Shown piece after piece: positions 6,237 to 60,735 of a DNA stretch of 64,000 bases. A model generated the notes under the pieces. That model worked only from the letters and a program-made list of their open reading frames with translations, did no database searches and had not been told where the DNA came from. The stretch is from Candidatus Chloroploca sp. Khr17 (GTDB lineage Bacteria; Chloroflexota; Chloroflexia; Chloroflexales; Chloroflexaceae). The stretch lies in the NCBI RefSeq assembly GCF_004138165.1, contig NZ_RYFF01000010.1:1-64000 (forward strand). The letters are read 5' to 3'. Position 1 is the first letter of the stretch; every line of letters begins with the position of its first letter. A program made the position numbers and the translations under genes.

Positions 6237-7160
6237 TCAATATACCACCTGGGCCAGTGGTTGTTCGGCTTCAAGCGTCTCATTGACGGTTACCCCATCG
6301 GCAGCCAGAACTGGCAAAAGGGCTGCAATCGCGGTGGCAACCATCGCATCATCAGGTTCGCGTGTGGTCAGATATTGTGTTGAGAGGGCTGGCATAAGCA
6401 GGCGACTTACCCAGGGCCGATGGTAGTGTGCAGCCGCAAAACGCATCACTTCGAACGCGACTGCCGCAACCAGGGGAATGAGCACAATCCGTGCCCCGAT
6501 GCGTGCCAACAGCGGTAACCCACTGACGGCAAGAAAGATCACAAACCCGATGATGGCGGCAATTACGAGGAAACTTGTCCCACAGCGAGGATGAATCCGA
6601 CTGAACGGGCGCACTGCCTCTACCGTGAGTGGCACACCGGCTTCGTACGCATTGATTACTTTATGTTCGGCCCCATGATAGCCAAACACGCGTTGAATAT
6701 CAGAGAGCCGACTGATGGCATAAATGTACAAAATGACGAGCGTCAGATTGATCAGCCCTTCAATGATCTCACGTACCAGAACTGATGCACCACGTTGGGC
6801 GAAGTAATTTGCAATAAGCGATGGCCCGACAACAAACAGCCCGATACCCACCGTGAGCGCCACCAGCAAGATGATCCATTGCACCACCGGCGACAGATCG
6901 TCTTCGTGCTCTTCGCTCGTCACGGCTGCCGAGAAATCGAGCGCCTCTTTCCCAACGAGAAAGGCACTCCGCAGCCCCACCAACCCACGGATAATCGGCC
7001 ACCGCATCCAGGCTGCGCTAGCAGACGGGGGCAAGGGGATATGCTTCAGCGCCAGACTGCCATCGGGACGTCGCACGGCCACACTGGCGAGATGCCGTCC
7101 GCGCATCATGACCCCTTCGAGCACTGCCTGACCGCCATATGAAAATGTCTTATCGCTCAT
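6237..7160 (-). CDS. DUF1385 (YqhQ-like) membrane protein
   Basis: A 307-residue member of the DUF1385 family. The N-terminal signature GGQAVLEGVMMRGRH is followed by hydrophobic segments (about residues 90-110 and 130-150). Next come the conserved FGYHGAEHKVINAYE and IHPRCGTSFL motifs with their His, Glu and Cys residues, and two further membrane segments. The role is unknown, although the conserved polar motifs suggest a metal or cofactor site at the membrane. It belongs to the minus-strand run downstream of the dcw cluster. Confidence 0.88.
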   Translation of the reverse strand: MSDKTFSYGGQAVLEGVMMRGRHLASVAVRRPDGSLALKHIPLPPSASAAWMRWPIIRGLVGLRSAFLVGKEALDFSAAVTSEEHEDDLSPVVQWIILLVALTVGIGLFVVGPSLIANYFAQRGASVLVREIIEGLINLTLVILYIYAISRLSDIQRVFGYHGAEHKVINAYEAGVPLTVEAVRPFSRIHPRCGTSFLVIAAIIGFVIFLAVSGLPLLARIGARIVLIPLVAAVAFEVMRFAAAHYHRPWVSRLLMPALSTQYLTTREPDDAMVATAIAALLPVLAADGVTVNETLEAEQPLAQVVY

Positions 7161-7245
7161 GATCCACGTACCACAATCCTACCCTCACACGCGCTGCTGG
7201 GTATTCGCCGTGCTGCTTCATCGCCGCCATCTTCGTCATCCGGCT

Positions 7246-7746
7246 CTATCCGCCCTTTGTGCCATTGAGGTCACCATTTTGCTGAGACGCCATCTGTTCG
7301 GCGATGCTCTCAGGCGCACCACGTCGTGCCAGGGTGGTTGCCGCAGCACGGACACCCGTGGCAAGACTGGCAATGCGAATCACAGGTGAAACCACCCGTT
7401 CGGCCACGAAGGTTGTGGATCCCGTCACGGTTGCCGAAGAGTCGCGGACATTATTCGCCAGTGTGCGGGTACTATCAAGCACTTCATTCAGTTTGACGAT
7501 CGACTCATCAACCTTTGGCACGAGCGTACCACGGGCAAGGCGGTCGATCCGGTTGAGGATATAGAACAAACCGAGCAGCACTGCGATCATCAAAATCACC
7601 CCAACCAGGGTGAACAGGCCAAGCAACACAATGAAGATATCACGGAATGCTTGGCGAATCTCTACTGGGGCTAGGGCCAGACCAACAATCAGCGCGATCA
7701 ACGCCAGCAGGATTATTCCGAAGCCAATTCCTACCCACTTTAACAC
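7246..7746 (-). CDS. Small membrane protein with coiled C-terminus (DUF948-like)
   Basis: 166 residues: two hydrophobic helices (about 5-27 and 38-65), then an amphipathic stretch with VDESIVKLNEVLDSTRTLANNVRDSSATVTG, typical of DUF948-type proteins. It starts at GTG (7744-7746) with GGAGGA five bases upstream. Function unknown; it may be a membrane-anchored scaffold. Confidence 0.7.
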   Translation of the reverse strand: MLKWVGIGFGIILLALIALIVGLALAPVEIRQAFRDIFIVLLGLFTLVGVILMIAVLLGLFYILNRIDRLARGTLVPKVDESIVKLNEVLDSTRTLANNVRDSSATVTGSTTFVAERVVSPVIRIASLATGVRAAATTLARRGAPESIAEQMASQQNGDLNGTKGG

Positions 7747-7841
7747 AGCGCTCCTCCGCTATCAGCGACGTAACAGGACGCCTGGATCTTTATGGCGGCT
7801 TTCCAATGCGGTGTTCAGGGACGGCAATGCTGCGGATTATA

Positions 7842-8099
7842 TCACACCCTCAGACGTGAAACAACTATCAGCAAGATCCATGCCAGCAGCACTGCCTCAA
7901 GCACAGGTATACCTGCTGGAGTAGGCAGATCCAGAGGGAAGCGCCACCCGAGGCCATAAGCAAGCAGACATCCGACACAGGCGGTCAACCAGAAGACAGG
8001 CAACTGACGCCAGCGTTTCCCCAACAAAACATGCGCCAGACCTGCGCAGGCCGTGGCGAGCAACAGGATCAGCAAGGTGGCCGGTGCCCATCCGGTCAT
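7842..8099 (-). CDS. Small hypothetical membrane protein
   Basis: About 85 residues from ATG at 8099, which overlaps the mnmA stop as ATGA and so is translationally coupled. Three hydrophobic segments (APATLLILLLATACAGLAHVLL, LPVFWLTACVGCLLAYGLGW, LEAVLLAWILLIVVS) predict a three-helix membrane protein. No family recognised. Confidence 0.65.
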   Translation of the reverse strand: MTGWAPATLLILLLATACAGLAHVLLGKRWRQLPVFWLTACVGCLLAYGLGWRFPLDLPTPAGIPVLEAVLLAWILLIVVSRLRV

Positions 8100-48732: not shown

Positions 48733-48975
48733 ATGGCCGTCACACGAGGCTGGTTCTCAGAGTCGTCAGCGCAAGTTGCGCAAATCGGCGACATCATGTT
48801 CCAGGGTCACTGGCAGTGGGTGTCGAATGCACTCCAGGCCACGTCGGCAGCGGTCGAGAATATCAACCGCAACGCCTACCCCGGTATCTCTCGCAGCGGT
48901 AGCGGCGAGGGTACGTTCACCGCTCCGGATGCAGGCTTCCGCCCGAAACGCATTCGGTCGCGCTTCAACCGGTAG
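48733..48975 (+). CDS. csmA: Chlorosome baseplate protein CsmA precursor
   Basis: 80 residues; binds BChl a and forms the baseplate that passes energy from the chlorosome to the membrane. The sequence TRGWFSESSAQVAQIGDIMF and GHWQWVSNALQAT ... NINRNAYPG is the Chloroflexus-type CsmA; His26 (His25 after Met removal) in FQGHWQW is the conserved pigment ligand. From memory the mature Chloroflexus protein is about 51 residues. The tail after about AYPGIS, SGSGEGTF..., ending in basic KRIRSRFNR, would then be removed. A very strong ribosome site, AGGAGG, lies eight bases upstream, fitting a highly abundant protein. Confidence 0.97.
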   Translation: MAVTRGWFSESSAQVAQIGDIMFQGHWQWVSNALQATSAAVENINRNAYPGISRSGSGEGTFTAPDAGFRPKRIRSRFNR

Positions 48976-48985
48976 CACGTTGTCC

Positions 48986-49038
48986 GTAGTCCGTAGTCCA
49001 CGATCTGTGTGCTTCACAGGTCGCGGCCTACGGACTAT
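48986..49038 (+). terminator. Stem-loop after csmA
   Basis: GTAGTCCGTAG (48986-48996) pairs with CTACGGACTAT (49028-49038, one wobble). An inner CTGTG/CACAG stem lies at 49005-49019. It probably protects the 3' end of the csmA message or reduces read-through into the next gene. GTCCGTAG is tandemly duplicated in the left arm. Confidence 0.55.
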
Positions 49039-49056
49039 CGGCTACAGGCCTTCCTC

Positions 49057-50313
49057 ATGATCAGTTTACTCTATCATAGCCATACCGTAGTTCCCGCCCA
49101 TCTCGCTGAGCTTGAGGCGATGCATCTTGTCGAACCCGATGAGCAGATCCTCGTGGCGTTCGATGGGGTCATCCTTGATGCCAATGGGCAGCGACTCAGT
49201 GGGCCAACCTTGCATGATTATTGTCTGTTGACGAGCCTGCGCGTGATTCTGTGGGCACGCGATTATGGACAGCATCTCTGCTGCGCGTTTCCGCTCGCTG
49301 AACTGACGTCTGTTGAAGGTGTGGGGCTCGATCCGCTCCACGCGCAAATTACCATGACGTTTGCGGCACCTGATGAGGAAGAACAGCAGTTTACGCTGGC
49401 CCTGTTGCCCCTAGTGAATCTGCAGGCTGCTTTGGTGTTGATGCGTGCAGCCAGTACTGCCGCACGTGAACTTGCTGACCATGGGGTCGATGCGCGTGAG
49501 GCTGGGCCTGAAATTATGGCGGTCTTGAGTGAACAGATCTATGGGCACGTGGATGGGTTGCGGCCCAATGAGACTCCCTATCGCTGGCCCGGTGCGGCGG
49601 TTGTTCAGCCGACTCTGAGCCCTACACCTGCGTTTGCCCACGATCCCGCGAGCTTGCCGCCAGGTCAGATTTATGCGGCTGGTCGCCTCGCTCGTTCGGC
49701 CTGGGATACCCTTCGCCGTTCAATTCGTGAAGCTGATTTGCCGCTCCCGTTTGATCTGAATGGTAATAGTTTACGTGAGTTGACCGAGACGATCCGCGCA
49801 GTTAATGATCTTGTGCATACGGTGTCAAGTAGCCCGACGGCCCAGCAGATGGCAATGGCGTTCCTTAATCGCAATAATAATGCCCAGGCTGCTCCGCCGT
49901 CTCCTATGGCAACCGCTGCTGACTTTGCCGCTGAGGCATGGCAGGCTCAGGTGCAACCTGAACCGGATCTTCCTGCGGCTGCAGTGCCACCATCACCGCC
50001 GAATGATTATCATGAGATCCCGTTGCGTCGTCGCAATACGTCTCCTCTTGATGCTGTTGTTCCTGTTGCTGAACCGCCTGTTGAGACGGTTCAAGCCGTG
50101 CAACCGGTGGTGGAACGCCGTCAGTCGCTTGCCGACCGCACTCCATCAGTTGCCGCTGCGCCTGATCATCGCGAGATTCCTTTGCGCCGTCGTAGTAGTT
50201 CCTCGCCGACAGCCCGTACGTTTGGTCAGGGTCATCGTACCCCGGCTATGAGTGGCTCAGGTGACGCCGGTTTGGAAGATCGCGCTATCCCGCCCGAAGA
50301 CCGCCGCCCATAA
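49057..50313 (+). CDS. PH-like domain protein A with repeated tail motif (chlorosome island)
   Basis: 418 residues from ATG 49057. Residues ~20-150 look like a bacterial PH fold (LVEPDEQILVAFDGVILDANGQRLSGPTLHDYCLLTSLRVILWARDYGQ), paralogous to the next gene. A helical segment follows (AGRLARSAWDTLRRSIREADL ... QMAMAFLNR). The tail is Pro-rich and repeats HEIPLRRRNTSP and HREIPLRRRSSSP, ending EDRAIPPEDRRP. No signal or membrane helix. Probably an assembly or adaptor protein; function unknown. Confidence 0.75.
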   Translation: MISLLYHSHTVVPAHLAELEAMHLVEPDEQILVAFDGVILDANGQRLSGPTLHDYCLLTSLRVILWARDYGQHLCCAFPLAELTSVEGVGLDPLHAQITMTFAAPDEEEQQFTLALLPLVNLQAALVLMRAASTAARELADHGVDAREAGPEIMAVLSEQIYGHVDGLRPNETPYRWPGAAVVQPTLSPTPAFAHDPASLPPGQIYAAGRLARSAWDTLRRSIREADLPLPFDLNGNSLRELTETIRAVNDLVHTVSSSPTAQQMAMAFLNRNNNAQAAPPSPMATAADFAAEAWQAQVQPEPDLPAAAVPPSPPNDYHEIPLRRRNTSPLDAVVPVAEPPVETVQAVQPVVERRQSLADRTPSVAAAPDHREIPLRRRSSSSPTARTFGQGHRTPAMSGSGDAGLEDRAIPPEDRRP

Positions 50314-50379: not shown

Positions 50380-51879
50380 ATGAGCACTCGCCCGTATCTC
50401 GGCATCAATGTGAACGCGGCTAGCGCTGATGAATTGCGCTACCGTGGGCTGCTCGAGGAGGGCGAGATTCTCCTCGCCCTCTTCGATGGTGTGCTGTTGG
50501 ACGAGCGCCGCCGACGTGTTGGTGGCCTGGCCCTCTCCGATTTTGTGGCCCTTACCGAACGTCGGGTGATTACCTGGGCTCGTGGCTTTTTTAACGATAC
50601 CGTTGATAGCTTCGAGTGGAAGGATGTCGATGTCGTTGAGGCTGAAACTTGGGATCCGTGGCACGGCCGCGTGACGCTTGCGTTCCGTTTGCCTGCGGTT
50701 GCCCCCCGCAAACGCCGTATCGCGGTCAATGGCTCCGTTGAGGATCCTGGCAGCGGTGAACGCTTGGTGATCAATACGCTCGATTATATGCCGACCGATG
50801 ATGTGACGATCTTTGCACGCATGGTCGAGTTGATCGGTGATCAGATTATTGCCAGTGTTGGCGGCGAAGAATTGGTCGCTGCGTTTGTTGAGGCCTTCCC
50901 TGGCGTTGAGCACGAGCCCCTTCAACCATTCTTTACGGCACCTGAACCGGCCCCGCCCCCTGTCGCTGAGCCTCTTCCCGAGGCAACGCAGACCCGCAAA
51001 CGCTGGTGGCAGGTCGGTAGCGCTGGGGAAGAACAGCGTGAACTGGTTCCTCCGACGACGCCTGGTAATCTGATTGCCGCGTATGAAAGTCAGCGTGGCG
51101 GTGCTCCCGCTGGCAGTGGCATCTCGCCGCTCTCTTCGACTGGCCCTATTGGTCCGTTGCCCAATTTGCCTGAACAGCCGAGTATGTATGAGGTCAGTCG
51201 CTCGCTGCGTCTGGTGCTTGAAGCACCTCGTAAGCTGGCCCGTGGCCTCCGTCGTGCGACCGAGGCTGTGGGTGGGGCAAATGAAATGGTGAGCGGTCTC
51301 CAGGATCCGCGTGTCCGTCGCAATGCGATGCGGGGCCTCTATTATGCCGCTTCTCAGCAAGAGTCTGAGGGCGGGCCGTTTGCGCCGGTCGCGCCAGTGG
51401 TGCGTGCGGCTGTTCGTTTCGCCGAGCCGCTCGAGGATGAACAGGCTGACCAGCAACAGTCGAAGCGTATTCAGGTTCGTGCTGCTGTTCGTCGTGCGCC
51501 TCCTTCTACTCAGCAGGTTGCACCCGAGGCGAAAATGTCGCCTCCTCCAACGGTTGCGCAACCTCGTACACCGCCACCGTCAATGGAGGCCGATCGCCTC
51601 GATCCGCAACGCCCCGATCCGGTTAAGCGCTCGATTAGCGTGCGTCGGATTGAGACTGCCCCTCAACCAGTCGCCCGCGAGGAGTCTGCTCAGGCTGAAC
51701 CGGTTCAGCCTGCTGCTGATCTTTCGCCAACGCTTGACCCTAATCGCGCTGCACCTGTGCGCCGTATTGCTGTTGGTCGCCCTGAACGGGTGCTCCATGC
51801 ACAAGAGACGGTTGAATCTGCGGGTCCACGCGTCATTAGTTATAATGGCAATGGCGTCCATCATGCCGAGGATGAATGA
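50380..51879 (+). CDS. PH-like domain protein B with repeated basic tail motif (chlorosome island)
   Basis: 499 residues; GGGAG precedes the ATG. The N-terminal domain (LLEEGEILLALFDGVLLDERRRRVGGLALSDFVALTERRVITWARGF) aligns with protein A, indicating a tandem duplication. A helical region at ~265-325 (MYEVSRSLRLVLEAPRKLARGLRRATEAVGG) follows a Pro-rich stretch. The tail repeats basic motifs: KRIQVRAAVRR, KRSISVRRIE, PVRRIAVGR, then ends HHAEDE. No known function; the conserved pairing with ArsA-type ATPases suggests a shared complex. Confidence 0.75.
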   Translation: MSTRPYLGINVNAASADELRYRGLLEEGEILLALFDGVLLDERRRRVGGLALSDFVALTERRVITWARGFFNDTVDSFEWKDVDVVEAETWDPWHGRVTLAFRLPAVAPRKRRIAVNGSVEDPGSGERLVINTLDYMPTDDVTIFARMVELIGDQIIASVGGEELVAAFVEAFPGVEHEPLQPFFTAPEPAPPPVAEPLPEATQTRKRWWQVGSAGEEQRELVPPTTPGNLIAAYESQRGGAPAGSGISPLSSTGPIGPLPNLPEQPSMYEVSRSLRLVLEAPRKLARGLRRATEAVGGANEMVSGLQDPRVRRNAMRGLYYAASQQESEGGPFAPVAPVVRAAVRFAEPLEDEQADQQQSKRIQVRAAVRRAPPSTQQVAPEAKMSPPPTVAQPRTPPPSMEADRLDPQRPDPVKRSISVRRIETAPQPVAREESAQAEPVQPAADLSPTLDPNRAAPVRRIAVGRPERVLHAQETVESAGPRVISYNGNGVHHAEDE

Positions 51880-52038: not shown

Positions 52039-53283
52039 ATGACGCGCGTCATTATCTATTCAGGCAAAGGTGGAACCGGTAAAACCACCATCTCAGCGGC
52101 TACGGCTACCTTGTTGGCTCGCACCGGACGGCGTACGCTCGTTCTCTCTAGTGATCCGGCGCACTCGCTGGCCGATGCGCTTGGTACTGAGATTAGCCGC
52201 GATCGCCCAACGGCGATTGCACCCCGACTCTATGGCCTGGAGATAGATACGATTTATGAGTGGCGCCATAATCTGGGGGGCTTTCAACAGTTTGTGGCCT
52301 CAACCTATTCGAATCGGGGCATTGATCGCTCGACCGCAGCGGAACTGGCGAATCAACCTGGCCTCGATGAGATCCTTGCCCTCCAGCGGATGATGACTGA
52401 GGCTGAGAGTGGGCGCTGGGATGCGATCGTGCTCGATACGGCTCCAACAGGCAATACCCTGCGCCTCTTGGCCTATCCCGAGATGATTATCGGTGGCGAT
52501 GCCGGTAAGAAGTTCTTTCGGGTCTATCGGGGCCTGGCGAATTTTGCGCGCCCCTTTAAACGCGATCTCCCCGATGACCGTTTCTTCAATGAGGTCGGGT
52601 CGTTGCTGGAACGGATGGATAAGCTCGCGAATTTCTTGTTGAGTCCTGAGATTTCGGTGCGCCTGGTGCTCAATCCCGAGAAGTTGCCCCTCCTTGAGAC
52701 CCGCCGGGCCTATACATTCTTGAATCTCTATGGCTTGATGGTTGACGCGATTATGGTCAATAAGATTTTGCCCCTTCGCGCTGACCTTGGCCCCTATTTT
52801 GATTATTGGGTGAGCCTCCAGCGAGGCTATCTGCAAGATATTGATGATAGCTTTATGCCCACCCCTATCTTCCGTACCGTTTTGCAAGAGGGTGAGCCGA
52901 TTGGTATGCCAGCCCTTGAAGCTATCGGGCGGGCCACGTTTGGTGAGCACGATCCAGGGGCGCTGCTCTTTGATGAGCGCCCGATCTGGCTTGAGCAGTG
53001 GAGTGAAGAGGGTGAGCCGGGACGGTATGACCTCTGTATGAAACTGCCGTTTATCAATGAGGAAGAAGCGGTTGATTTGGTGCGTAGTGGGCCGGATCTC
53101 GCTGTATCGATCGGCCGTGTGCAACGTACGATTGCGTTGCCGCGCATCCTCTATTCATGTACCATGGGGAACCATCGTTATGAAGAGGGTGTGCTGCGTT
53201 TGGAGTTCTGCGAGGGTACCGGTGATGAGGCTGGTCTCCCCATTGAAGAAGAACCCGATAAGTTGCGGGTTGAGGCAGCATAA
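52039..53283 (+). CDS. ArsA/Get3-family ATPase 2
   Basis: 414 residues. Walker A GKGGTGKTT (9-17), switch I SSDPAHSLADALG, switch II DTAPTGNTLRLL, LVLNPEKLPLLETRRAYTFLNLYGL, and a C-terminal alpha-crystallin-like module (YDLCMKLPFINEEEAVDLVRSGPDLAVSIGRVQRTIALP). All ATPase motifs are intact. It is followed two bases later by the degenerate third paralogue, a spacing that fits a heteromer made from one message. Confidence 0.92.
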   Translation: MTRVIIYSGKGGTGKTTISAATATLLARTGRRTLVLSSDPAHSLADALGTEISRDRPTAIAPRLYGLEIDTIYEWRHNLGGFQQFVASTYSNRGIDRSTAAELANQPGLDEILALQRMMTEAESGRWDAIVLDTAPTGNTLRLLAYPEMIIGGDAGKKFFRVYRGLANFARPFKRDLPDDRFFNEVGSLLERMDKLANFLLSPEISVRLVLNPEKLPLLETRRAYTFLNLYGLMVDAIMVNKILPLRADLGPYFDYWVSLQRGYLQDIDDSFMPTPIFRTVLQEGEPIGMPALEAIGRATFGEHDPGALLFDERPIWLEQWSEEGEPGRYDLCMKLPFINEEEAVDLVRSGPDLAVSIGRVQRTIALPRILYSCTMGNHRYEEGVLRLEFCEGTGDEAGLPIEEEPDKLRVEAA

Positions 53284-53285
53284 TC

Positions 53286-54395
53286 ATGAAGTTATTGATC
53301 TTCTCCGGCTTTAGCCAGATCTTGCAGAGTACTGCCGCTATCGCCTCGGCCTGCCATGCAGCTCGTCGTGGGCAGCGTGTCCTGCTTGCTTCGGTTGGGC
53401 CGGGGCATGTGCTCGGTTCGTTGCTTGGTCAGAGCCTGGGATCACGTCCGATGGAGTTGGAAGCGAATCTGGCTGCACTGGAAATCAATGCCCTCAGTGA
53501 GCTCGGAGCACGCTGGGACGATGTCCGTCCGTCGTTGCGCAGTGGTCCCGCAGCGAAATTGCGCGAGCTTGGCCCCGAAGAACTGCCTTCGTTCCCCGGT
53601 ATGGATGCGATCGCAGGGTTGCTGATTGCGGAAAAAGCCCGTCAGACCGGGCGCTTTGATCTGGTGGTGCTCGATGGTCCTTCTCCCGAAGGCCTCGTGC
53701 GGGCGATGACGCTGCCCGATGTGTTGCGCTGGCTGACCCGCCTGATCTTTGGGCTTGACCGTGGTGCGGGACGTTCGCGTACCTCCCAAGAGGCGGCGTT
53801 TATCCCTGCCGCTCTGCTTGGCCCCAATGCCGTCGCGCCCCTCCAGGATCTGCGCGTTGAACTTGAAGTGCAACGCTCTCGCCTTGATGCCGCGACTGGT
53901 ACCCGCGTACGCTTGGTGGCAACGAGTGATGAATTGGTGCTCCCTCCTACCCGTACGATGCTGACGGCCCTCGGTCTCTATGGGCTCGCAAGTGATGAAC
54001 TGCTCGTTTCAGGCGAACCCTCGACGGTCAGTGATGCGACGCGCCTCGAATTTTCACCCGAGACAAGCAAGGCGCGCCCACATTTGCGTATCCATCCGCT
54101 CGTTTCAAGCCCTGCTAATGGTGATGATTGGGCCCTGCGTGGGGCCGCACTCTATCATGATGGCGAAGTCTTTGACCCCGCAAAGTCGCCCCGTGAATCC
54201 GCAGGCGATCGCGAGGTGAAGTTGCATATCCCCTTCCTCGACTCGAAAGAGTTGGATATTGCGCTGGCAAGCGAAGAAGTTGTGGTTCGCCTTGGCCAGT
54301 TGCGCCGCCACGTGCTGCTGCCTGGCATTGCGAGTGGTGGCCGTTTGCGTGCCAAGGTCGATACCGATGAAGTGCTCCGGCTTTGGGTTGAGTGA
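53286..54395 (+). CDS. Degenerate ArsA-like paralogue 3 (P-loop lost)
   Basis: 369 residues aligning along their whole length with the two ATPases. The Walker A position reads FSGFSQILQSTAAIAS instead of GKGGxGKTT. Switch I DPAHSLA is GPGHVLG, and switch II DTAPTG is LDGPSPEG. The core LRVELEVQ ... MLTALGLYGLASDELLV and the C-terminal crystallin-like module (KLHIPFLDSKELDIALASEEVVVRLGQLRRHVLLPG) are kept. The frame is intact and codon use looks normal, so it is a working pseudo-ATPase rather than a pseudogene, probably a regulatory partner of ATPase 2. Confidence 0.85.
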   Translation: MKLLIFSGFSQILQSTAAIASACHAARRGQRVLLASVGPGHVLGSLLGQSLGSRPMELEANLAALEINALSELGARWDDVRPSLRSGPAAKLRELGPEELPSFPGMDAIAGLLIAEKARQTGRFDLVVLDGPSPEGLVRAMTLPDVLRWLTRLIFGLDRGAGRSRTSQEAAFIPAALLGPNAVAPLQDLRVELEVQRSRLDAATGTRVRLVATSDELVLPPTRTMLTALGLYGLASDELLVSGEPSTVSDATRLEFSPETSKARPHLRIHPLVSSPANGDDWALRGAALYHDGEVFDPAKSPRESAGDREVKLHIPFLDSKELDIALASEEVVVRLGQLRRHVLLPGIASGGRLRAKVDTDEVLRLWVE

Positions 54396-54420: not shown

Positions 54421-55428
54421 ATGCTGAACGAAGAGACGAGCCAGTCAGTAACAAGGTTGGGCACAGGGATTCCCACCGCGCCAACGGCAAAATATAGCAC
54501 CTATCGGGAAGAGGTCGCAACGAAACTCGCAGGTAAGTTGAGCGCCCGCGAGCGTCGCCGCCTCGAAGCCGAAGAATATCTGATGAGTCGGGCCAACTTT
54601 GTTGAGTTGAATGGGGTTGTGCACCATTATATGGATGTCGGGCCACGTGATGGCGAACCGCTGGTGCTCATTCACGGCTGGGATTGCTCTTCGTACTGGT
54701 GGCATCATATTATTGACCCCTTGGCTTCGGTTGGCTATCGGGTGATTTGCTATGATCTCAAGGGTCATGGCTTTTCCGATACCGATCCGCGCCGTGATTA
54801 TACGGTCGCCGGGTTTAGCAATGACCTGCGTGCCCTCGGTGAGGCACTGCAGTTGCCGCCCCACCATGTGTCGGCTTTCTCGCTCGGGGCGTTCGTGGCT
54901 CTTCACTATGCCGATGCGAATCCTGATCGGGTGCGTTCGCTCACCTTCTTTAATTTTAGTCTGATTCCTTATAATCGTGTAGCCTCGGCCCTGATCCCCG
55001 GCATGCTCGACACTGTCTTTAATACGGTGCTGCGCCCGATCGAGCGTCGTGGCCTCTGGTGGATTCCTTATGTCTATGCGCTCGTCGTGCTGTCAAAGAA
55101 TACCGCCCCGGTGAGTGATGTCAAGCTGGCGACGCTGAGTCTCCGCTGCTGTGATCCTGCGGCGGTGCGTGTCTCGGCTCAGGAATTGGCCCGACGTGAG
55201 ATCCTCGAAGCGGTCGCCGCGCAGATGGCTCGGGTTCAGCATCCTACGTTGCTCGTGGCAGGTTCAGGTGATCCGATTATGCGTCCCCAGGGGGGGCGTA
55301 AGCTGATGCAACTCGCCCCCAATGGACAGTATCTCGAGGTGCCACGTTGTGGGCACTTGATCCTTTTTGAACTGCCCGAACAGGTTATTCAGATCCAACG
55401 CCTCTTTTTGCGGGGTGTGCGCGAGTAG
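54421..55428 (+). CDS. Alpha/beta hydrolase (chlorosome island)
   Basis: 335 residues from ATG 54421 (GGAG upstream). After a ~60-residue helical N-terminus, the fold shows LVLIHGWDCSSYWWHHIIDPLASVGYRVICYDLKGHGFSD. The nucleophile is Ser154 in SAFSLGAFVAL, an AxSxG variant of GxSxG, with Asp284 in AGSGDPIM and His312 in RCGHLILFE. The full triad is present, so it should be active. No signal peptide. A role with pigment esters or lipids is possible but unproven; BchO-like proteins share the fold. Confidence 0.85.
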   Translation: MLNEETSQSVTRLGTGIPTAPTAKYSTYREEVATKLAGKLSARERRRLEAEEYLMSRANFVELNGVVHHYMDVGPRDGEPLVLIHGWDCSSYWWHHIIDPLASVGYRVICYDLKGHGFSDTDPRRDYTVAGFSNDLRALGEALQLPPHHVSAFSLGAFVALHYADANPDRVRSLTFFNFSLIPYNRVASALIPGMLDTVFNTVLRPIERRGLWWIPYVYALVVLSKNTAPVSDVKLATLSLRCCDPAAVRVSAQELARREILEAVAAQMARVQHPTLLVAGSGDPIMRPQGGRKLMQLAPNGQYLEVPRCGHLILFELPEQVIQIQRLFLRGVRE

Positions 55429-56430: not shown

Positions 56431-57267
56431 ATGTCCAGTTCAAATTCGTACAGCTGGATGCCGGAGTGGTTACGCAAGTTCTTGAACCTTGATAGCGAGC
56501 CAACAAGCTATGGTTCGGCAAGTAGCGTGAGCACACAGTCCAGTTATTCGCCACCTGCTCGTCAGTCGTTCAGCTACACGCCACCTCAAGCGACCTATAC
56601 GCCGTCTACCCAGGCGACTTATACGCCGCCTGAGGCGACTTATACGCCGTCTACCCAGGCGACCTATACGCCGCCTTCTTCAGGCGAGGCGTCAACGGCT
56701 AACAATGCAGAGACACCACCGCGTTTTGCGATTGAAGGCTCGTGGAAGCCGAACACGCCACCCCCGCCGGCTCCACGTACCAATGGCAATGGAAGCGGCA
56801 ATGGCAATGGTTCCTCGTACAATCTCGAAGGCTATGTTCAACCGATTGGCTATGGCGTCCGTACCTATCTACGAGGGTCGCTGCCACCTCAGGGGCTTGA
56901 GCAATTTACTCGTGAATTTCGGGCGACCCTGACGGATGTCTGGAATTTCTATAGCTATTGGACACGCTTCCAGACGGATGAATTGGTGCGTATTGGCCGT
57001 GAAGCGGTCGATACCGTGATTGAAAATCTGCCTGGTGATAGTTCGGCCAGTAGTGCGCCGACGGTGCGCCGTATCAAGGTCAATATGGCCAATGGCAATG
57101 GGCAAAACAAAGCTTCGGTAGCCCCTGAGGCCAAAGCAACCCCTGAGGCCAAAGCGGCCCCTGAAGCAAGTGATGGCCCACCGCCACCTGCTGCTAGTGA
57201 TAAGCCAGCCGATGCATCGGACAGTGCCGCGCCAAGTCCATCTGACAAGAACAAGAAGCGGCGATGA
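56431..57267 (+). CDS. Repeat-tailed protein of unknown function (chlorosome island)
   Basis: 278 residues. Starts MSSSNSYSWMPEWLRKFLNL, then a repeat region with four ATYTP units (encoded by 56590-56679), a Pro/Gly/Asn-rich linker (NGNGSGNGNGSS), and one folded-looking segment (about 130-205): LEGYVQPIGYGVRTYLRGSL ... EFRATLTDVWNFYSYWTRF. The tail is Pro/Ala/Lys-rich with PEAKA repeats. No signal peptide. The amphipathic first helix and the aromatic core could bind the chlorosome envelope or a partner. Confidence 0.7.
   Translation: MSSSNSYSWMPEWLRKFLNLDSEPTSYGSASSVSTQSSYSPPARQSFSYTPPQATYTPSTQATYTPPEATYTPSTQATYTPPSSGEASTANNAETPPRFAIEGSWKPNTPPPPAPRTNGNGSGNGNGSSYNLEGYVQPIGYGVRTYLRGSLPPQGLEQFTREFRATLTDVWNFYSYWTRFQTDELVRIGREAVDTVIENLPGDSSASSAPTVRRIKVNMANGNGQNKASVAPEAKATPEAKAAPEASDGPPPPAASDKPADASDSAAPSPSDKNKKRR
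56590..56679 (+). repeat. Tandem repeat inside a coding region
   Basis: Two 45-base units (56590-56634 and 56635-56679), each made of a 24-base and a 21-base half, encoding ATYTPSTQ and ATYTPPE. It can shrink or grow in frame. Confidence 0.85.
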
Positions 57268-58184: not shown

Positions 58185-58688
58185 ATGTTCAAAAGGCTAA
58201 GTGACCGACAAATTCTGTATGCAATGGCCCTGGTCAGTGGTATCTCACTCGTATGTTATACCGCCGTACTCCGGCTCTGTCGACTTGAAGCACAGGAGCA
58301 TCAAGCCGAGCGCGCCGCACAACGCACACGATTGGCGAATCTCGCACACGTGCTTGACTGGGTGATGAACGCGATGGTTGCCATCGTGGGAATTGGAAGA
58401 CTCTTTCGCGAAGAGGATTTTGGGGGGCAGCATCAGCCCCGGTGGCTGAAGATCTATTTTATGATTACCGGCCCACTCCCAACCATTGGCATGGTTGGTG
58501 CGATGATCACGGGTCATCGTTGGGGGCCACAACTTGGGAGTGATCCCAGGCGGCGATCCATCCATCGGGCGTTTGCCTGGGTTGGCTATATTAGTTGGTG
58601 GCTCAGTTATATTCCTATCTTTGCCCAGCCACTGCTCAACCGCATCAGTGAAGAGCGGGTCGAAAGTTCGAGACCGTTAAGTGAGTAG
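58185..58688 (+). CDS. Four-helix membrane protein (chlorosome island)
   Basis: 167 residues with hydrophobic segments at about 10-29, 57-75, 87-110 and 130-151, separated by polar Arg/Glu/His-rich loops. His residues lie in GQHQPRW, TGHRWGP and RSIHRAF. No family recognised. Its end runs into the bchU reading frame, so expression with bchU is likely. It may be a membrane anchor or pigment-handling protein. Confidence 0.72.
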   Translation: MFKRLSDRQILYAMALVSGISLVCYTAVLRLCRLEAQEHQAERAAQRTRLANLAHVLDWVMNAMVAIVGIGRLFREEDFGGQHQPRWLKIYFMITGPLPTIGMVGAMITGHRWGPQLGSDPRRRSIHRAFAWVGYISWWLSYIPIFAQPLLNRISEERVESSRPLSE

Positions 58689-58701
58689 AAAGACCACAGA
58701 C

Positions 58702-59769
58702 ATGACCAGTGCGGAGGCACAGTTTCGTTGTTTTCCGAATTGTCGCTGCATGAGCGATGATGCTGAACTCTACTGTTCTATGGAACGGGCCTATGAGATG
58801 GTCTTCAAAGGCACCGTTGACTTCTTTGTGATCAAAGCGGCGTACGATCTTGATTTGTTCGAGGCTATGGCGAGTGGGCCTCAGGAGGTTGAGACGCTGG
58901 CAAACGCAACTGGCAGTGTCCCGATGCGTCTTGAGCGGTTGCTGATCACCATGGAACAGATCGGCCTGACGCACCTGCACGAAGGGATCTGGGCGCTTAC
59001 CCCATTTGCCGAGCAGTTCTTTACGACCCCCGAGCAACATCGCAACATGACGATGCTGCCCTTTGTCAGCTATATGACTGACTTGATCCAGACCTACTAT
59101 TCTAGCCTGGCCGATGTGACCCGTGGCAAGATGGATTTTACCAGTCATGTGCCCCATCCGCCTCGTACTCGCGAAGATAGTGTCTTTTATGAAACAATCC
59201 ATCGTAGCAATATCCACTTTGTGCAGAAGTTCTTGCGCGATCAAGCCAACTTGAACGGGGTTGAGCGACTCACAGATGTTGGCGGTGGCATTGGCGATAT
59301 TGCGGCATCGCTGTGTGCCAAATACCCCGAGTTGCAGGTGACCCTGATCAACTTGCCGAGTGCGCTTGATCTGGTGCGTGAGAATGCCGAGGTGCGGGGG
59401 GTTGCAGGGCGAATTAACCCGATTGCGATCGATATGTATCGCGACCCCTATCCCAAAGCTGATGCGGTGCTCTTTGCGCGTATTCTCTACCCAATGAATC
59501 GCCAATTCTGCACGATGCTGCTACAGAAGGCGTATGAAGCCCTGGAGCCGGGTGGGCGCGTGCTCGTCCTTGATATGATTATCAGTGACCGCAGCAAACC
59601 AAATTATGACTATCTCACCCATTATCTGTGTGGGATTGGGATGAACTTCTCGGTACTCGAATTCAAAGATCACGCCATCTATCCCGAATTGCTGCGGGAG
59701 ATCGGGTTTGATGAGGTGACGTTCGCCGAAGGGTATGATCATGTGCTCTATCAGGCGGTGAAAGTCTGA
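58702..59769 (+). CDS. bchU: Bacteriochlorophyllide C-20 methyltransferase BchU
   Basis: SAM-dependent enzyme that methylates C-20 and turns the BChl d-type ring into BChl c. It matches Chlorobaculum BchU throughout: MERAYEMVFKGTVDF, TGSVPMRLERLLITMEQI, PPRTREDSVFYETIHRSN, the SAM loop LTDVGGGIGDIAASL, INLPSALDLVRENAEVRGVAGR and KPNYDYLTHYLCGIGMNFSV. The start is uncertain: GTG 58681, ATG 58702, or ATG 58750, which aligns best with the known N-terminus. The longer forms carry a cysteine-rich leader (CFPNCRC, then C). Confidence 0.93.
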   Translation: MTSAEAQFRCFPNCRCMSDDAELYCSMERAYEMVFKGTVDFFVIKAAYDLDLFEAMASGPQEVETLANATGSVPMRLERLLITMEQIGLTHLHEGIWALTPFAEQFFTTPEQHRNMTMLPFVSYMTDLIQTYYSSLADVTRGKMDFTSHVPHPPRTREDSVFYETIHRSNIHFVQKFLRDQANLNGVERLTDVGGGIGDIAASLCAKYPELQVTLINLPSALDLVRENAEVRGVAGRINPIAIDMYRDPYPKADAVLFARILYPMNRQFCTMLLQKAYEALEPGGRVLVLDMIISDRSKPNYDYLTHYLCGIGMNFSVLEFKDHAIYPELLREIGFDEVTFAEGYDHVLYQAVKV

Positions 59770-59814
59770 TTGTGTACGCGTAGTGTGGGCAAGCGACCAT
59801 ATCTGAGTGTTAAC

Positions 59815-60735
59815 ATGCTCTCTACTTCTGAAAAACAGGTGCCACTCGGCAAAAAGATCAGGGCTCATATTGATCTGGCTGATCCGGTGACATGGATCTC
59901 GCCTTCGATTGTGACGATCTGTGGTGCCCTGGCATCCGGCCCATTGATTGGTTTTCAGTGGACAAATGTGCAACACTGGGGGCTTGTCATGCTCGGGGCA
60001 TTGATGACTGGGCCACTCGGGACGGGATTTAGCCAGAGCATCAATGATTACTATGATCGTCACCTGGATGCCATTAATGATCCTGAACGTCCCATTCCAG
60101 CCGGGCTCGTCACGCTCAATGAGGCTCGCCTGAACTGGATGTTTTTGGCAACAGCGACGCTGCTTGTCTCGTTTGTCTTTCAAAATCTCTGGATCGTCTT
60201 GCTGGCCCTCGGTGGGTTGGTTTTGTCGGTCGTTTATAGTATGCCGCCAATCAAGCTCAAAAAACATTTCTGGCTTGGTCCGCCTGCAGTCGGGTTGGGC
60301 TATGTCAGTATGAGCTGGCTGGCAGGACATCTTATTTTTGCCCCGCTCACCTGGGAGAGTGTGGTTGTGGCGTGGATCAACGGCGCACTCGCTGCGGGTT
60401 TGCTCTTTCTCAACGACATTAAGAGCGTTGAGGGTGATCGGCAGCATGGGCTGCAATCGCTCGCGGTGGCAATTGGGGTGCATAAAACGTTACTGGTCGC
60501 CTATGCGACAATTAATCTGTCGCAGGCGCTGCTGATGGTTCTGGCGATTGTGTGGGGTTACTATGCTATCGCCGTGTTTATTGGATTGTCAATCGTTGTC
60601 CCGATTTATAATCAAATTAAACTCTATCAGGATCCATCGCAGAAGAACTATGTGCGGTATTTGCTTGCGAGCAATCCGTTCGTAGCGATTATCCAGTTCT
60701 TGTCGGGCTTTATGGTCGGCGGCTACTTTCGGTGA
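59815..60735 (+). CDS. bchK: Bacteriochlorophyll c synthase BchK (UbiA prenyltransferase)
   Basis: Attaches the isoprenoid or alcohol tail to bacteriochlorophyllide. 306 residues, about nine membrane helices. First Asp-rich motif SINDYYDRHLDAINDPERPI (Asn77, Asp78, Asp81, Asp85); second LFLNDIKSVEGDRQHGLQSL. BchG and BchK look alike. I choose BchK because it sits next to bchU, csmM and csmN. Start at ATG 59815; a TTG at 59770 would add 15 residues. Confidence 0.9.
   Translation: MLSTSEKQVPLGKKIRAHIDLADPVTWISPSIVTICGALASGPLIGFQWTNVQHWGLVMLGALMTGPLGTGFSQSINDYYDRHLDAINDPERPIPAGLVTLNEARLNWMFLATATLLVSFVFQNLWIVLLALGGLVLSVVYSMPPIKLKKHFWLGPPAVGLGYVSMSWLAGHLIFAPLTWESVVVAWINGALAAGLLFLNDIKSVEGDRQHGLQSLAVAIGVHKTLLVAYATINLSQALLMVLAIVWGYYAIAVFIGLSIVVPIYNQIKLYQDPSQKNYVRYLLASNPFVAIIQFLSGFMVGGYFR

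Follow-up and report, generated by a model that had tools for sequence, protein, structure and literature searches.

The gene that directly follows a catalytic Get3/ArsA-type ATPase (P2) in the chlorosome gene cluster of the Chloroflexales encodes a selectively maintained, Get3d-like pseudo-ATPase (P3), and we give about even chances to the view that this protein acts in chlorosome assembly as a chaperone or adaptor that needs no nucleotide. The locus was analysed within a stretch of 64,000 nucleotides ("the window"), to which all positions refer unless stated otherwise. Its source is Candidatus Chloroploca, as the P3 protein is 98% identical to those of C. asiatica and C. mongolica.

P1 (ATPase 1), csmA, two uncharacterised genes, P2, P3, and a BchO-like hydrolase are all encoded on the plus strand, heading towards bchU and a bacteriochlorophyll synthase gene. 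P1 (47407..48606) is an intact Get3/ArsA-type ATPase with an alpha-crystallin-like domain. It lies upstream of csmA (48733..48975), which was assigned to the chlorosome baseplate protein by a match to PF02043 (Bac_chlorC, 2.2e-28). The two uncharacterised genes encode the conserved cluster proteins X434 (49009..50313) and, just upstream of P2, Y499 (50380..51879); no Pfam match was found for either of them, and some 100 residues at their N-termini form a shared domain (36% identity). P2 (52039..53283, 414 aa) is followed after 2 bases by P3 (53286..54395, 369 aa), and the alpha/beta hydrolase gene (54421..55428) is directly downstream of P3. Further along the plus strand are bchU (58681..59769; TIGR02716, 3.5e-148), encoding the bacteriochlorophyllide C-20 methyltransferase, and a bchK/bchG-type bacteriochlorophyll synthase gene (59770..60735; TIGR01476, 1.4e-110), which is called bchK by its position, as in C. 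aurantiacus (PMC3150298). This order, from P1 to bchU and bchK, is kept in more than 20 genomes. A further protein of the cluster, encoded at 56431-57267, contains TYTPPxATYTPS repeats and shows low identity (28-57%) to its relatives outside the genus.

An alignment of the three paralogues of the cluster, P1, P2, and P3, revealed how far P3 has diverged from a functional ATPase. P2 contains the Walker A motif GKGGTGKTT, the switch I motif SSDPAHSL, and the switch II motif DTAPTGNT, while the sequences of P3 in the same columns are GFSQILQST (residues 8-16, 53307..53333), SVGPGHVL, and DGPSPEGL. The preliminary description of this DNA had noted intact motifs in P2 and degenerate versions of all three in the neighbour two bases on, and the alignment bears this out. 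The differences are typical of the orthologues. The Walker A sequence of P2, and thus both P-loop lysines, is identical in 30 of 30 orthologues, while none of the 30 P3 orthologues assessed has a lysine at either of the conserved P-loop positions; the lone lysine in one P3 copy (SHSKMLQCA) is at a different position. The position of the Walker A lysine is mostly occupied by Gln or Arg, usually followed by Ser, so that residual binding of phosphate or a nucleotide by P3 is conceivable. The catalytic Asp of switch I is replaced in P3 by a Gly that is invariant across the orthologues, and the Gly-Pro of switch I and the Asp-Gly-Pro of switch II are likewise conserved.

Despite the loss of these motifs, P3 is recognisable as a member of the family. 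It matches the ArsA/Get3 ATPase profile (PF02374) with 74 bits, above the curated cut-off of 24.3 (E-values of 1.6e-20 for P3 and 4e-68 for P2), but it has neither the deviant Walker A motif with its signature lysine nor the switch I Asp by which ArsA/Get3 ATPases are defined. The alpha-crystallin-like domain ArsA_HSP20 (PF17886) is present in all three cluster proteins (1.2e-17 for the C-terminal domain of P2 and 1.9e-8 for P3). The score of P3 against the NosAFP equivalog NF050088 is 92.5 bits, below the curated cut-off of 325 bits. A confident AlphaFold2 prediction (pLDDT 85.6, pTM 0.86; pLDDT 83 for P2) shows that P3 has retained the whole Get3 fold, and the best match of the model among solved structures is NosGet3d (Z 26.6 over 326 residues), with an alignment that spans P3 residues 1-367 and includes the crystallin domain. 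The earlier claim that P3 keeps both the fold and the C-terminal crystallin-like module is thus supported by Pfam, the model, and the structural match. A helix at residues 248-272 of P2 is absent from P3. The CXXC helix of Get3 is missing from both AtGet3d and NosGet3d (PMC10248533), and the helix lost from P3 may be the same one.

Orthologues of P3 were found in 33 of 82 Chloroflexales genomes, with identities of 46-100% and without a single internal stop codon. Pairwise Nei-Gojobori dN/dS values (19 pairs, dS 0.14-2.2) range from 0.02 to 0.13 for P3 and from 0.00 to 0.07 for P2. These values confirm that P3, a pseudo-ATPase by its sequence, is maintained by purifying selection and is far from neutral, although its rate of evolution is about double that of P2 (mean distances 0.53 and 0.24). 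A pseudogene in decay or an artefact of the sequence, for which the degeneration of all three motifs might be cited, was rejected as an explanation of P3, because the frame is intact in 33 genomes, selection is strong, and the predicted fold is confident; we assign this explanation practically no probability.

The distribution of P3 overlaps largely with that of CsmA. CsmA was found in 33 genomes of one family and P2 orthologues in 34. Among the 82 genomes, 30 encode both CsmA and P3, three encode only the one and three only the other, and 46 encode neither. This co-occurrence is significant within the order (Fisher p = 1e-15) and within the family (p = 0.003), values that are uncorrected for phylogeny. 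Wherever one contig carries both P2 and P3, the two are adjacent and equally oriented, with a gap of 1-225 bp between them, the one exception being a P2 fragment that is truncated at the edge of its contig. In C. aurantiacus (G007), for example, P2 is located at 166418-167596 and P3 at 167713-168813. The preliminary description had made its reading dependent on P3 being neither neutral nor missing or broken in close relatives. Neutrality was not seen, and the gene is intact in 33 genomes, but it is absent from one lineage: the assembly G038 (2.8 Mb, estimated to be 81% complete) has the same cluster with only 73 bases between P2 and the hydrolase gene. Because P3 is cleanly missing there, chlorosome clusters can do without it. 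A further assembly, G019, contains P3 and lacks P2 and csmA. Two assemblies (G029 and G031) are uninformative with regard to P3, because their contigs break off behind P2 and shortly behind csmA. In two genomes from elsewhere in the class (G085 and G086), P1 neighbours csmA, and the tandem partner of the P2 orthologue is an intact ATPase rather than a pseudo-ATPase; no P3 or P4 (see below) was found in them. Their divergent CsmA sequences suggest that they are likely relatives of Chlorohelix, and relatives of X434 and Y499 also adjoin csmA in these Chlorohelix-like genomes. Candidates for P3 outside the Chloroflexales were limited to weak matches (28-31% identity across some 150-180 residues) in Myxococcales, Deltaproteobacteria, and Acidimicrobiia, and those sequences that were inspected keep the P-loop and do not qualify as P3.

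The positions that are under constraint differ between the two neighbours. In P3, the variability of Walker A is in the 88th percentile, and the values for the crystallin domain (residues 310-369, 54213..54392) and for residues 155-168 (53748..53789), a loop with the sequence GLDRG(P/A)GRS, are in the 0th percentile. The pattern is reversed in P2, with an invariant Walker A and switch II and a crystallin domain in the 81st percentile. This comparison of sequences shows that the constraint on P3 has moved to the crystallin domain, its most conserved domain, and to the GLDRGPGRS loop. Residues 159-175, which overlap the conserved loop, have pLDDT values below 50 in the model of the isolated chain; a stretch that is conserved and yet of low confidence alone resembles a putative binding surface.

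P3 is not the only pseudo-ATPase of this fold in the genome. The preliminary description had counted three paralogues, including ATPase 1 upstream of csmA. The position of the latter was correct, but the count is too low, because the genome encodes two further intact paralogues (contig C136) and, besides P3, a second degenerate one, P4 (contig C148; L048:7957-9090 of the source genome G000). A gene for an SDR-type oxidoreductase (7120-7932) neighbours P4, and a folD-like gene is nearby on the opposite strand. P3 and P4 resemble each other in several respects: the P-loop lysines are absent from 8 of 8 P4 sequences, both proteins have the switch I GPxH with the exchange of Asp to Gly, and the loop GLDRGPG(R/K)S is common to both (as GLDRGPGRS in most P4 sequences). 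Within this genome, P3 is about 34% identical to P4, compared with 26% to P1 and 24% to P2. In contrast to P3, P4 lies outside the chlorosome cluster, occurs also in families without csmA, and keeps the helix that P3 has lost.

Phylogenetic trees united P3 and P4 with support values of 100/100, and of 98/95 after NosGet3d, AtGet3d, and archaeal Get3 had been added, although long branches are involved in this join. The grouping of P3 with P2, as expected for a tandem duplicate, is disfavoured by an AU test when P4 is in the tree (p = 4.9e-6), but is not rejected when P4 is left out (p = 0.119). Because the trees join P3 to the older P4 family, which is found also in families without csmA, P3 probably did not arise as a tandem copy of P2 that then decayed. 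Most likely, though not certainly, it descends from an older pseudo-ATPase lineage that it shares with P4. NosGet3d and AtGet3d form one branch and P3 and P4 another, in a tree with long branches in which Get3d is represented by these two proteins of solved structure.

The simplest reading in the preliminary description was a heteromer of a catalytic P2 and a regulatory P3. The pseudo-subunit of such a dimer would tune the ATPase activity of P2 or fix the orientation of the dimer. One part of this is supported, i.e. that a maintained pseudo-ATPase is encoded beside P2. The assignment of P3 as the regulatory half of P2 found no support, and we regard a P2-P3 heterodimer as doubtful. It is compatible with the same-strand adjacency and small distance of the two genes, with purifying selection on both, and with the precedent of an asymmetric Get3-like hetero-complex (6bs3, chains A and B), in which Rv3680 has the P-loop GAGGVGKTT without the signature lysine. 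However, the signature lysine of a Get3-type ATPase works in trans, on the ATP of the partner subunit (PMC10248533). P3 has no lysine to donate to the ATP site of P2, and the signature lysine of P2 is invariant (30 of 30) though P3 offers no ATP site. A P2-P3 sandwich would therefore leave the ATP of P2 without a lysine in trans and the lysine of P2 without a target, which favours P2-P2 (or P1-P2) dimers. Furthermore, P2 occurs without P3 in G038, G085, and G086, and P3 groups with P4 instead of P2. No covariation of evolutionary rates was seen between P2 and P3 (partial r = -0.12, compared with 0.33 for P1 and P2), which is weak evidence with 28 pairs and 23 related genomes. The contrast that had been drawn to homodimers of Get3 and ArsA was also too strong, because ArsA is a fused pseudo-dimer and the hetero-complex of the Get3-like mycobacterial proteins A and B has been solved; as this complex is asymmetric, a P2-P3 heteromer would not be the first in this fold. 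A wider version, i.e. a three-part GET-like machine of P1, P2, and P3 that targets proteins or lipids to the chlorosome, with P3 as a nucleotide-free regulatory or scaffold subunit paired with P2, seems unlikely to us.

Two other roles for P3 were weighed. It could be the non-catalytic partner of another cluster protein, e.g. Y499, so that its adjacency to P2 would reflect operon order only. Y499 is indeed the protein whose rates covary most strongly with those of P3 (partial r = 0.52; p < 0.001 by permutation), and the conserved loop of low confidence would suit a binding surface. However, such covariation carries little weight with 28 pairs tested in 23 related genomes, an interface was not seen, and Y499-like proteins occur also in Chlorohelix-like genomes without P3, so we consider this improbable. 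Still less probable is a sensor function of P3, with a nucleotide or phosphate bound in a remodelled pocket. The Gln or Arg usually followed by Ser at the Lys-Thr position of Walker A and the conserved residues of switches I and II would fit a sensor, as would the binding of inorganic phosphate by AtGet3d (PMC10248533). However, P3 retains neither of the lysines nor the Asp of switch I, and few of its stretches are more variable than the P-loop.

Among known systems, Get3d is closest to P3. NosGet3d (All4481, PDB 3IGF and 8EGK) is the best match in sequence (1.4e-22) as well as in structure, and it shares with AtGet3d (8ELF) and P3 the Get3 fold, the C-terminal alpha-crystallin domain, which has been described as unique to Get3d (PMC10248533), and a degenerate switch I; Get3d is found in photosynthetic lineages. 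In contrast to P3, from which the P-loop and the Asp of switch I have disappeared, the two Get3d proteins have a recognisable P-loop and are active ATPases, and NosGet3d still hydrolyses ATP with an Arg (PMC10248533). They also form a separate branch of the tree, and P3 is part of a chlorosome cluster. The Mycobacterium proteins BagA and BagB (Rv3679-Rv3680, PDB 6BS3) are two Get3-like paralogues, one with an altered P-loop, that form a hetero-complex, but the Walker A lysine is present in both chains (GKGGTGKST and GAGGVGKTT). We know of no link between BagA/BagB and chlorosomes. Get3/TRC40 and ArsA have the fold of the ATPase domain in common with P3, but they are active deviant Walker A ATPases that form a homodimer or a fused pseudo-dimer, while P3 is non-catalytic by sequence. 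In an Acidimicrobiia sequence (L093:1696-3900), tandem Get3-like ATPases have the P-loops GKGGVGSTS, without the Walker lysine, and GPGGVGKTT, without the signature lysine; such complementary losses are the pattern expected of an obligate heterodimer.

According to the reading of P3 as a Get3d-like chaperone or adaptor, P3 would work without a nucleotide as a holdase or adaptor. Get3d structures are closed in the absence of a nucleotide, bind a transmembrane segment, and contain a lipid in a hydrophobic chamber (PMC10248533), and P3 is probably a constitutively closed dimer like Get3d. It might hold or pass on hydrophobic proteins or lipids of the chlorosome, and CsmA is the nearest candidate client. 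P1 and P2 would perform the ATP-driven steps as ordinary ATP-sandwich dimers. A contact between P3 and P2 may occur, but the enzyme activity of P2 would not require it. Against this reading stand the clean absence of P3 from G038, the presence of P3 in the G019 assembly, which lacks P2 and csmA, and the Gln or Arg at the position of the Walker A lysine, with which some nucleotide binding is conceivable.

The delivery of proteins, pigments, and lipids to chlorosomes is not settled, and budding and aggregation models are debated (PMC9316378). In the literature library that we searched, no paper was found that ties Get3 or ArsA proteins to chlorosomes. If the three-part machine with a P2-P3 pair were real, it would add a catalytic/pseudo heteromer to the Get3 family and be a first candidate for the route of chlorosome proteins to the organelle. 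The example of P3 indicates that the Get3 fold and its crystallin domain can stay under strong selection after the loss of the ATPase, and it raises the question of a Get3d-like function without ATP. Get3-like chaperones, of which one is ATP-dead, form a conserved set between csmA and bchU/bchK that offers a direct genetic handle on chlorosome delivery.
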